Assembly (NCBI RefSeq): GCF_038096175.1
Contig: NZ_CP151099.1
Location: forward strand, 4,062,501-4,126,500
From: Nostoc sp. UHCC 0302
GTDB lineage: Bacteria > Cyanobacteriota > Cyanobacteriia > Cyanobacteriales > Nostocaceae
Reading direction: 5' to 3'
Length of the DNA stretch: 64,000 bases
The translations under genes and the position numbers were made by a program. Under the pieces are notes generated by a model. It worked only from the letters and a program-made list of their open reading frames with translations, did no database searches and was not told where the DNA came from. Below are positions 1 to 4,307 of this stretch, in pieces (within the stretch, counting starts at the first letter, position 1; every line of letters begins with the position of its first letter).

Positions 1-190
1 AGTCCCCACCGAAAACCCAAACGAAAAATGGGGACGCAACCCCCATATTGCTTTATCAGTTACTGATTTAAATATCGCCAAACAAGAATTGCTCAATCAG
101 AATTATCGCATTCAAGCCAGTGCTTCGGGTCGTCCTGCCCTGTTCACCCAAGACCCTGATGGCAACATTATCGAGCTGAGTCAGCAGTAA
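1..190 (+). CDS. VOC (glyoxalase/bleomycin-resistance) family protein, C-terminal part
   Basis: The frame is open from the left edge and stops at TAA 188-190, so only about 62 C-terminal residues are visible. They read PHIALSVTDL, then RPALFTQDPDGNIIELSQQ. The DPDGNxIEL ending is the typical last strand of vicinal-oxygen-chelate proteins, where the final Glu is usually a metal ligand. VOC members include glyoxalases, dioxygenases and resistance proteins, and the substrate cannot be told from this fragment. The start lies outside the window. Confidence 0.8.
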   Translation, partial: VPTENPNEKWGRNPHIALSVTDLNIAKQELLNQNYRIQASASGRPALFTQDPDGNIIELSQQ

Positions 191-298
191 AGGGAGTAGG
201 GGACAGGGGGCAGTGGACAGTTGACAACGGACAGGGGGGACAAGGGGGACAATTAAGAAAATAATTACTATCTCTTGACTTTTGACTCTCAAAGCCCA
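191..298. repeat. G-rich low-complexity intergenic repeat (heptamer type)
   Basis: The spacer consists of degenerate GGGGACA/GGACAGT/TTGACTC-like units, the short tandem repeats common between genes of Nostoc and Calothrix. An in-frame TTG at 275 lies inside this repeat and is a poor start for the next gene. Confidence 0.6.
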
Positions 299-1591
299 AT
301 GAAAATCATTGCCTACACTTACACCGATCCTCTATTAGAACCATCTCCTGATCAAGCTAATTGGGGATGGGAGGTGGATGCTGTTTATCAAGATTTGGGT
401 AAGCGTACACAATTACAACAACTGTTGACTGACTGCGAAACTGAACCAGCAAATTATCTCCTAATCCGTCGCTTGGAAGAATTGGGGGATAGTGTAGAGG
501 AAGTGAGCGATCGCCTCAATGCACTCGAAGCTATGGAAGTGATGGTGATTGCTACTCAACAACCCTACACTTCAGAAAATTCTCATCTCCGCGTTGAATT
601 GCTGAATTTACTCCACGAAATTCAACGTCAGCAACGCAGTCATCGCATCCGTCAAGGACACGCCCGCAATCGTCTTGATGCCGCACCCCCTCCCGGCAAA
701 GTACCCTACGGCTATCGCAGAGGTCAAGGAAAATATACTATTGATCGCAGTACTTCACCTGTGGTCAAAGATTTTTTTGAACATTTTATACTTTATGGTT
801 CGCTGCGCGGTTCGGTGCGTTACCTAGCGAAAAAATACGGTAAGAAAATCTCTGTCACCACTGGACGGCGCTGGCTGACGAATCCAGTCTATCGTGGCAA
901 TACAGCTTATCACAATGGTGAAATTATCTCGAATACTCATATTCCGATAATTTCTCAGCAAGAAGCTGCTCAAGTTGACCGACTTTTACGCCGTAACAGC
1001 CGTTTACCTTCTCGGACTGCTAGTGCGCCGCGTTCTCTGGCTGGGTTGGTTCTCTGTAGCAAGTGTCAATCACATTTGACAGTTACTAGTGTCACCCAAC
1101 GCAACCAAGACAAAGAGTATCTTTATTTACGTTCTATTAGCTGTCCGAAAAAGCCCAAGTGTCGAGCGATTCCTTACCAAGAAGTCTTAGAAAATACCAT
1201 TGAAACTGTTTGCCGTGACTTACCCCTAGCGGTAGCAGGAACGAATTCTCCCCAATTGGATGCAGTCAAGAATAGTTTAGGGGAAGCGATCGCCCGTCAG
1301 CAAGAAATCCTGGCTCAGATACCAGCTTTAATTGAAACCGGAATTTTGGATGCCCAAACAGCAAAGTTAAGGGCTTATAAACTCCGTACGGAAATTTCTG
1401 CACTACAAGCCAAGTTGGCAACACTCCCACCAGTGAATTTGCGTTCTGTTGCTCAAGCTGTTTCTCTTCCCCAATTTTGGTTAGATTTATCGGAAACAGA
1501 GCGCCGATTCTACTTCCGAGAATTTATTAAGCAAATTGAAATTATTCGTCAGGATAAAAATTGGAAATTACAAGTAATTTTTATTTTTTGA
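299..1591 (+). CDS. Large serine recombinase family protein with a degenerate catalytic domain
   Basis: A protein of 430 residues from ATG 299; an upstream in-frame TTG at 275 falls in repeat DNA and was not chosen. The order is a short resolvase-like N-terminal domain (1 to about 90), a recombinase domain (about 115-215, with HRIRQGHARN, PPPGKVPYGYRR and RRWLTNPVYRGNT), a Cys4 zinc ribbon (CSKC ... CPKKPKC) and a C-terminal helical stretch. This is the layout of large serine integrases and of XisF/SpoIVCA-type excisionases. The usual AYxRxS nucleophile motif reads AYTYTD here. The usual DRLGR motif reads EELGD, so the nucleophilic Ser and two catalytic Arg appear to be missing. DNA binding may persist. 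It could be a regulator, a partner subunit or a relic; no attachment site was found. Confidence 0.8.
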   Translation: MKIIAYTYTDPLLEPSPDQANWGWEVDAVYQDLGKRTQLQQLLTDCETEPANYLLIRRLEELGDSVEEVSDRLNALEAMEVMVIATQQPYTSENSHLRVELLNLLHEIQRQQRSHRIRQGHARNRLDAAPPPGKVPYGYRRGQGKYTIDRSTSPVVKDFFEHFILYGSLRGSVRYLAKKYGKKISVTTGRRWLTNPVYRGNTAYHNGEIISNTHIPIISQQEAAQVDRLLRRNSRLPSRTASAPRSLAGLVLCSKCQSHLTVTSVTQRNQDKEYLYLRSISCPKKPKCRAIPYQEVLENTIETVCRDLPLAVAGTNSPQLDAVKNSLGEAIARQQEILAQIPALIETGILDAQTAKLRAYKLRTEISALQAKLATLPPVNLRSVAQAVSLPQFWLDLSETERRFYFREFIKQIEIIRQDKNWKLQVIFIF

Positions 1592-3920: not shown

Positions 3921-4307
3921 TTAGGTAAATATTTTATCTACTTCTTGAATTTTCTCTGTTTTTGGAAACACTTGCTGATCGTAGTTAGTGCTTTCTTGCG
4001 TTATGGCAAGCGTACTAAAGAAAATGGCACTGCCAACAGCCAGAGCTACCATAGGACGCTTAAGCAGAACAAAATCTCTTATAATCCTTGCTAAAGGTCG
4101 GCTTTGACGACGTAGTGCCGAAGCGACAATTATCTGTCTCCAGGTAAATGGATCACGGACATAATGACCGCTCTGACAAACTACTAGCCGTTCCTGGCAG
4201 TACGGACAGGAAAACAAGCCAATGCACCTCTTGATTGGTTTAGGCGTGGCATTTCTTTGGCAAATTGGGCAAGTAACATAATGATTATCAAAGGTGTGTG
4301 TATTCAT
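3921..4307 (-). CDS. Small zinc-ribbon protein with one membrane segment
   Basis: 128 residues. The N-terminus has CPIC (about 14-17) and CPYC (about 35-38), then a further Cys-x-x-x-His (CQSGH), a likely zinc ribbon. A basic stretch (ALRRQSRPLARIIRD) is followed by one hydrophobic segment (about 88-105, MVALAVGSAIFFSTLAI) and a short polar tail. The arrangement suggests a cytoplasmic zinc-binding head anchored in a membrane. I do not recognise the family. It is monocistronic, with repeat DNA on one side and a long empty spacer on the other. Confidence 0.65.
   Translation of the reverse strand: MNTHTFDNHYVTCPICQRNATPKPIKRCIGLFSCPYCQERLVVCQSGHYVRDPFTWRQIIVASALRRQSRPLARIIRDFVLLKRPMVALAVGSAIFFSTLAITQESTNYDQQVFPKTEKIQEVDKIFT

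Follow-up and report, generated by a model that had tools for sequence, protein, structure and literature searches.

The plus-strand gene at positions 299–1591 of the analysed window, i.e., a stretch of 64,000 nucleotides from Nostoc sp. UHCC 0302, encodes a 430-residue, catalytically dead large serine recombinase, assigned on the basis of Pfam domains and full-length orthologues. We consider it fairly probable that the product is an old, vertically kept, chromosomal protein derived from a large serine recombinase, binding DNA in a sequence-specific manner and not cutting it. The domains, predicted fold, conserved loss of catalytic residues, purifying selection, distribution and placement on one tree branch were computed for this protein. 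That it keeps DNA recognition and cannot cut, as the initial annotation proposed, is well supported by its sequence, and the exaptation of a recombinase is very likely.

The open reading frame is real, with its ATG at 299 and its stop codon at 1589–1591. In a 438-residue version with a TTG start, Pfam detects the Recombinase domain (PF07508, 5.6e-11), the Resolvase N-terminal domain (PF00239, 4.7e-9) and the recombinase zinc ribbon (PF13408, 1.1e-5), and the same families are found in the 430-residue version. The architecture is that of a large serine recombinase, i.e., an N-terminal resolvase fold followed by the recombinase domain and a zinc ribbon with a coiled coil. The resolvase-like domain with the replaced active site comprises residues 1–95 (299–583), as delimited by PF00239, the fold superposition and alignment columns; a long helix, the dimer helix by homology, follows at residues 96–126 (584–676; helix 98–126 in the model). 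The DNA-binding Recombinase domain at residues 127–237 (677–1009) is the most conserved part of the protein (mean column identity 0.83), and residues 238–430 (1010–1588) form the zinc-ribbon domain with its long-helix (coiled-coil) insert, matching the fold of 4kis_B. The view that the recombinase and zinc-ribbon domains are intact was borne out by the PF07508 and PF13408 matches and by the zinc ligands: Cys253, Cys256, Cys282 and Cys288 are kept in 135, 135, 135 and 134 of 135 orthologues, respectively, and, like these cysteines, many DNA-binding columns vary little or not at all.

The AlphaFold2 model built on 81 sequences (mean pLDDT 87.8, pTM 0.75) has serine integrases as its closest solved structures. 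Residues 115–430 superimpose on the A118 integrase (4kis_B) with Z 15.6 and the N-terminal domain on 3guv with Z 13.6 (1.9 Å over 95 residues); the rmsd of 15–24 Å in whole-chain matches is as expected if domain placement differs. The PF00239 match begins at profile position 31, so the first strand, harboring the nucleophile position, lies outside it. In the alignment with phiC31 integrase, residue 1 of the model corresponds to residue 3, so that the phiC31 serine (S12A in the entry titles) lands on model residue 10; for Tn3 resolvase (5cy1) and Bxb1 (9iu2), the aligned starts are 1 and 1. With the starts in step, Asp10 falls on the serine of phiC31, Tn3 and Bxb1, provided that the first strand is ungapped, since these comparisons give end points only. 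The same register is supported by a MAFFT alignment against XisF-like proteins.

This alignment included 135 distinct orthologues, obtained from 147 loci scoring above 250 bits after removal of duplicates and of the partial L049 and L170, along with 21 active XisF-like proteins from 22 loci (L101 was dropped). The columns are named Arg8, Ser10, Arg45, Arg68, Arg71, etc., in gamma-delta resolvase numbering. Both motifs read in the initial annotation, AYTYTD and EELGD, are present in the frame. At Tyr8-Thr9-Asp10 (320–328), where active relatives have Arg-Val-Ser including the nucleophile, the Arg8 column contains Tyr in 130 of the 135 orthologues and Arg in none, and the Ser10 column contains Asp in 92, Asn in 29, Glu in seven (128 together) and Ser in one. 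Glu14 (338–340), mostly Gln in active relatives, is Glu or Asp in 130/135. The stretch Glu60-Glu61-Leu-Gly-Asp64 (476–490) replaces Asp-Arg-x-x-Arg: the Asp67 column has Glu in 93 and Asp in eight orthologues, the Arg68 column is acidic in 132 (Arg in one), and the Arg71 column is acidic in 124 (Arg in none). No orthologue combines Arg8, Ser10, Arg68 and Arg71. The exceptions, L165 (Ser10 kept along with Cys8, Asp68 and Ser71) and L169 (Asp67-Arg68 kept along with Tyr8, His10 and Asp71), are, as judged from these residues, both devoid of a working catalytic set. Tyr6 is kept in 135/135; the segment from Asp32 to Arg36 (392–406) retains the equivalents of Asp36 (D32, 135/135) and Arg45 (R36, 133/135), so that one catalytic arginine is probably still in place. 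The loss of the nucleophile stood as first described, and the number of missing arginines had to be raised from two to three (8, 68 and 71).

The active rows were picked for a Y-x-R-x-S motif, which fixes their Arg8 and Ser10 by construction; L097 among them is a frame of 303 residues, and several rows fall short of the XisF cut-off. Arg68 and Arg71, for which they were not selected, are present in 21/21 and 18/21 of these rows, and on these two positions, the ones that make the comparison informative, no active member sharing the altered motifs was seen. No substitute Ser or Arg replaces the lost residues in the alignment columns of the active site. The comparison across the clade turned out clearly positive: the losses are conserved in the orthologues, the dead rows form one branch, and, since the orthologues retain only 36–89% identity, chance or sequencing error is excluded. 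The catalytic loss is confirmed and, on these alignments, appears stronger than first stated.

The active site has not simply eroded. Acidic residues occupy positions 10, 14, 61 and 64 in 83, 92, 95 and 85%, respectively, of 59 diverse representatives with less than 75% pairwise identity, compared with 0, 5, 0 and 0% of the XisF-like rows, and Arg8 has become Tyr in 55 of the 59. The N-terminal domain, ca. 12 residues shorter than in the XisF-like rows (about 97 vs. 110), carries on average 16.4 acidic residues vs. 16.0 in these rows and 7.7 basic residues vs. 16.0, i.e., half. Ten columns among the first 126 were classed as acidic or as having lost a basic residue; six belong to the active site by homology (8, 10, 14, 32, 61, 64), and four (25, 27, 45, 77) lie outside it. 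Read from the sequences, the active-site change is a replacement and not decay.

Such a pocket could also have been put to a new use. It seems improbable, if worth stating, that a single early event in cyanobacteria made a serine integrase into a DNA-binding switch gated by a metal or ligand, or into a nuclease dependent on metal, with a conserved acid-tyrosine pocket and a near-frozen DNA-recognition surface, acting as a class-wide regulator of an attachment-site-like operator. We likewise regard as unlikely the explanation that Asp10, Glu14, Asp32, Glu61 and Asp64 coordinate a divalent metal, in which case the protein would be a switch responding to metal or a metal-dependent phosphodiesterase/nuclease directed by integrase DNA-binding domains. 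The four acidic positions, the invariant Asp32 and the acidic-to-basic balance of the domain speak for a metal site, as does a core that gamma-delta resolvase is said to have been found by Artymiuk and colleagues in 1997 to share with 5'-3' exonucleases. However, position 10 is Asn in 29/135 orthologues and position 64 is Asn, Gln or Ser in 11/135, Arg36 should occupy the same pocket, and the charge inversion is equally explained by selection keeping DNA out of it.

Selection was gauged from dN/dS (Nei–Gojobori) for ten pairs and three domains, giving 30 domain-by-pair estimates. The ratio was 0.11–0.43 for the N-terminal domain (the value of 0.43 depends on a dS of 0.11; L131/L132 is a saturated pair), 0.02–0.09 for the recombinase domain and 0.08–0.16 for the zinc domain. 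The recombinase domain evolved more slowly than the N-terminal domain in all ten pairs and more slowly than the zinc domain in nine, the zinc domain being slightly slower in the pair L041/L045. The range obtained for the N-terminal domain means that the catalytic-like domain is selected as well, less tightly. Across 81 sequences, 36–89% identical to the window protein, 35 columns are invariant.

The gene is widespread in the class. In 388 Cyanobacteriia genomes, 259 have a match at E ≤ 0.001, and 239 have one better than 1e-40. The family f25 (genomes of 1.6–3.7 Mb) yielded no strong match in 63 genomes and four weak ones; all 239 strong matches thus fall among the 325 genomes outside f25. The remaining 86 of these 325 lack a match better than 1e-40, although some of the assemblies are not complete and strongly diverged copies might escape the search; the function of the protein is therefore dispensable. 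Outside the class, in a 386-genome sample of the phylum, the matches listed are weak (best 1.9e-14); in the same sample, no genome has two matches above 120 bits among those listed, down to ca. 41 bits. A scan reaching close relatives alone returned 48 loci, mostly from Nostocales. Broken or partial copies occur in G159 (pieces with stops), G066 and G229 (two pieces each) and G014 (residues 117–430 in the best match), indicating that the gene can be lost in single lineages. In a maximum-likelihood tree (quick search, 96 rows, root placed on the active rows), the 82 dead rows group on a single branch, separate from 14 active relatives (SH-aLRT 100). This topology favours a single loss of catalysis and does not prove it, because many branches are long, chiefly those of active rows, and the root was set on the latter.

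The domain order is the same as in XisF, the excision recombinase of the fdxN element, and the corresponding NCBIfam model (NF041201) matches the window protein over residues 35–415 and reaches E ≤ 0.001 with each of the 81 aligned members. The score of the window protein, 140 bits, is below the equivalog cut-off of 375. Unlike XisF, the dead recombinase lacks the catalytic Ser and three Arg and is not tied to XisF-bearing genomes: XisF above the cut-off was found in 15 of 386 genomes, two of which (G048 and G103) have weak matches alone to the dead-recombinase gene. A role tied to XisF is not supported by this co-occurrence. The suggested relation to developmental excisionases held by fold alone, and the protein is not XisF.

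Over residues 1–430, the predicted fold also resembles that of large serine integrases, e.g., of A118, Bxb1, phiC31 and SPbeta (9dxd), and the likeness is best in the recombinase and zinc-ribbon domains. In contrast to these enzymes, the active site is lost and charge-inverted, and close relatives are absent from the collections of mobile DNA searched. None of 45 pattern matches on viral contigs encodes a relative, 72,556 plasmid records gave no match, and the 22 phage records that match include none with at least 60% identity (19–27% among the 15 matches listed). In these collections, the dead recombinase behaves as a chromosomal gene.

It is quite unlikely that the dead protein serves as a guard, occupying attachment sites or mixing dimers with active serine integrases and thereby blocking the integration or excision of mobile elements. 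The intact integrase-type DNA-binding domains would suit such a function, and so would the matches of the XisF model to 299/386 genomes at E ≤ 0.001, the dead family itself being counted; yet the rarity of true XisF is at odds with strong gene matches in most genomes outside f25. The host's own genome (9.59 Mb) has one other Resolvase-domain match, a small, presumably IS607-like resolvase (195 residues counted from the ATG) whose N-terminal part is DNA-binding-like, and a second match of the XisF model in that genome lies beyond those listed. Furthermore, a guard is expected to evolve fast, whereas the recombinase domain is the slowest one in nine of the ten pairs.

A still-active recombinase using other residues, e.g., a Thr/Ser9 nucleophile, is very improbable: position 9 is Thr or Ser in 111/135 orthologues, but adjacent residues of a strand should face opposite sides, placing it off the pocket, and Arg8, Arg68 and Arg71 are gone too, the last two being predominantly acidic. 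No serine recombinase is known to work via residue 9 without these arginines. A decaying relic, to which the broken or partial copies might point, is hardly credible given dN/dS of 0.02–0.26 in 29 of the 30 estimates (0.43 in the other) and the 35 invariant columns.

The genomic context was surveyed at 131 loci, many of them close relatives, for which 500 bases or more of upstream sequence were available. The window opens with the 3' end of a glyoxalase/VOC-superfamily gene (1–190, plus strand; complete at L002:967–1323, stop codon excluded). In 68/131 loci, a VOC gene precedes the recombinase gene in the same orientation at a distance of up to 1.5 kb; the neighbour search did not include the copy in the window, which is therefore scored as lacking one. 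In seven loci (families f1, f2, f6 and f7), the VOC and recombinase genes overlap by 4 bases, suggesting an old operon. As an obligate partner, the VOC gene was rejected, since in 194 genomes the association is not obligate either way: a close VOC gene occurs without any recombinase match in G085, G411, G409 and G403, and the recombinase gene occurs without a close VOC match in G036, G402 and G493. The spacer between the two genes in the window (191–298) contains a G-rich, imperfectly repeated stretch, and spacer length varies widely among close relatives. In four distant loci (L159, L162, L163 and L167), another glyoxalase gene, lactoylglutathione-lyase-like by eye, adjoins on either side.

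No neighbour gene is conserved throughout the dead-recombinase loci; those identified are the VOC gene, a glycosyltransferase-like gene and a chloride-channel-like frame (by eye). In L150 (genus g28), the dead-recombinase gene starts 9 bases past a gene for a CsoR/RcnR-type metal-sensing repressor (L150:4626–4991; 66 bits to RicR, cut-off 175), which we assume to be InrS-like, and the short gap suggests one transcript there. A minus-strand frame of 128 residues with two CxxC pairs (window 3921–4307) has relatives near the gene in 22 loci.

A conserved operator through which the gene might regulate itself was sought as words shared among 400-base upstream regions, one for each of 96 loci, with random stretches from the same loci, drawn as five sets, for comparison. 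AT-rich words typical of spacers were all that this search recovered; it is crude and would miss a degenerate site. The HIP1 element (GCGATCGC) was rejected as an obligate partner because of a double dissociation in 388 genomes. All eight genomes of family f27 carry the gene (E 3.3e-90 or better) along with 29–121 HIP1 copies (23–69 for the reversed-pattern control), and it is also present in G556 (22 copies, control 69) and G080 (74, control 174). Conversely, all 26 genomes of genus g76 have 5286–9276 copies and no strong gene match (four weak, best 1.4e-20). At large, HIP1 and the gene co-vary (the 63 f25 genomes have 0–607 copies and no strong match), which may be explained by shared ancestry. 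HIP1 counts differ sharply within genera as well: in g194, G556 has 22 and G566 has 72 copies, most others having thousands, and in g28, G014 and G080 have 134 and 74 compared with more than 3000 in G076 and G093. These are useful natural contrasts for studies of HIP1 function.

A precedent for a recombinase fold that lost catalysis and turned repressor is MrpR, the master repressor of the SPbeta prophage, described in PMC10516654 as a DNA-binding repressor with a tyrosine-recombinase fold lacking the catalytic residues. It is the closest documented analogue within the literature examined; unlike the dead recombinase, it is prophage-borne, and its fold is unrelated to that of serine recombinases. 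A review dealing with recruited mobile elements (PMC8987985) names, in its available portion, no dead serine recombinase, and PMC4874684, which surveys the xis genes carried by interruption elements in heterocyst formers, does not mention the family in its accessible sections. Likewise, no description of it was found in the available parts of the open-access literature, including PMC8400943, PMC3610870, PMC9845703, PMC9241938, PMC3542288 and PMC3783174; the Synechocystis ‘Resolvase’ slr8029 appearing in the accessible text of PMC9845703 is not equated with the dead-recombinase gene.

Overall, the preferred reading is that of a protein which probably binds DNA without cutting and is kept for a job in the host. 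Cleavage would have been lost early in the class Cyanobacteriia, the protein being kept on the chromosome. Counting against this reading are the upstream search that recovered no operator, the lack of a constant neighbour gene, the 86 class genomes outside f25 devoid of a strong match, the residues kept in L165 and L169 and the slower zinc domain of the pair L041/L045. By homology, it may dimerise through the long helix 98–126 following the N-terminal domain, with the recombinase and zinc-ribbon domains holding a site of the integrase-attachment type, and the coiled coil might link one bound dimer to another. With acidic residues and Tyr in place of the catalytic Ser and Arg, the former active site should repel the phosphates of DNA; a pocket that makes no contact with them would not cleave, and the complex should go no further than a bound or looped site. 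We infer DNA binding, dimerisation and a regulatory role from these features; the suggestion of a regulator remains plausible, and the likely use would be transcription control or local DNA architecture.

A widespread cyanobacterial protein filed by profile libraries under recombinases is very probably no recombinase. If it binds a fixed site, a single ChIP-seq or DAP-seq run in a model strain would reveal the regulon under its control, that of a factor for which the open-access searches yielded no description, and, if it is a regulator, it would be the serine-recombinase counterpart to the tyrosine-recombinase repressor MrpR. The slow-changing recognition domain, combined with an inert catalytic part, would make this family a natural dead DNA-binding scaffold.
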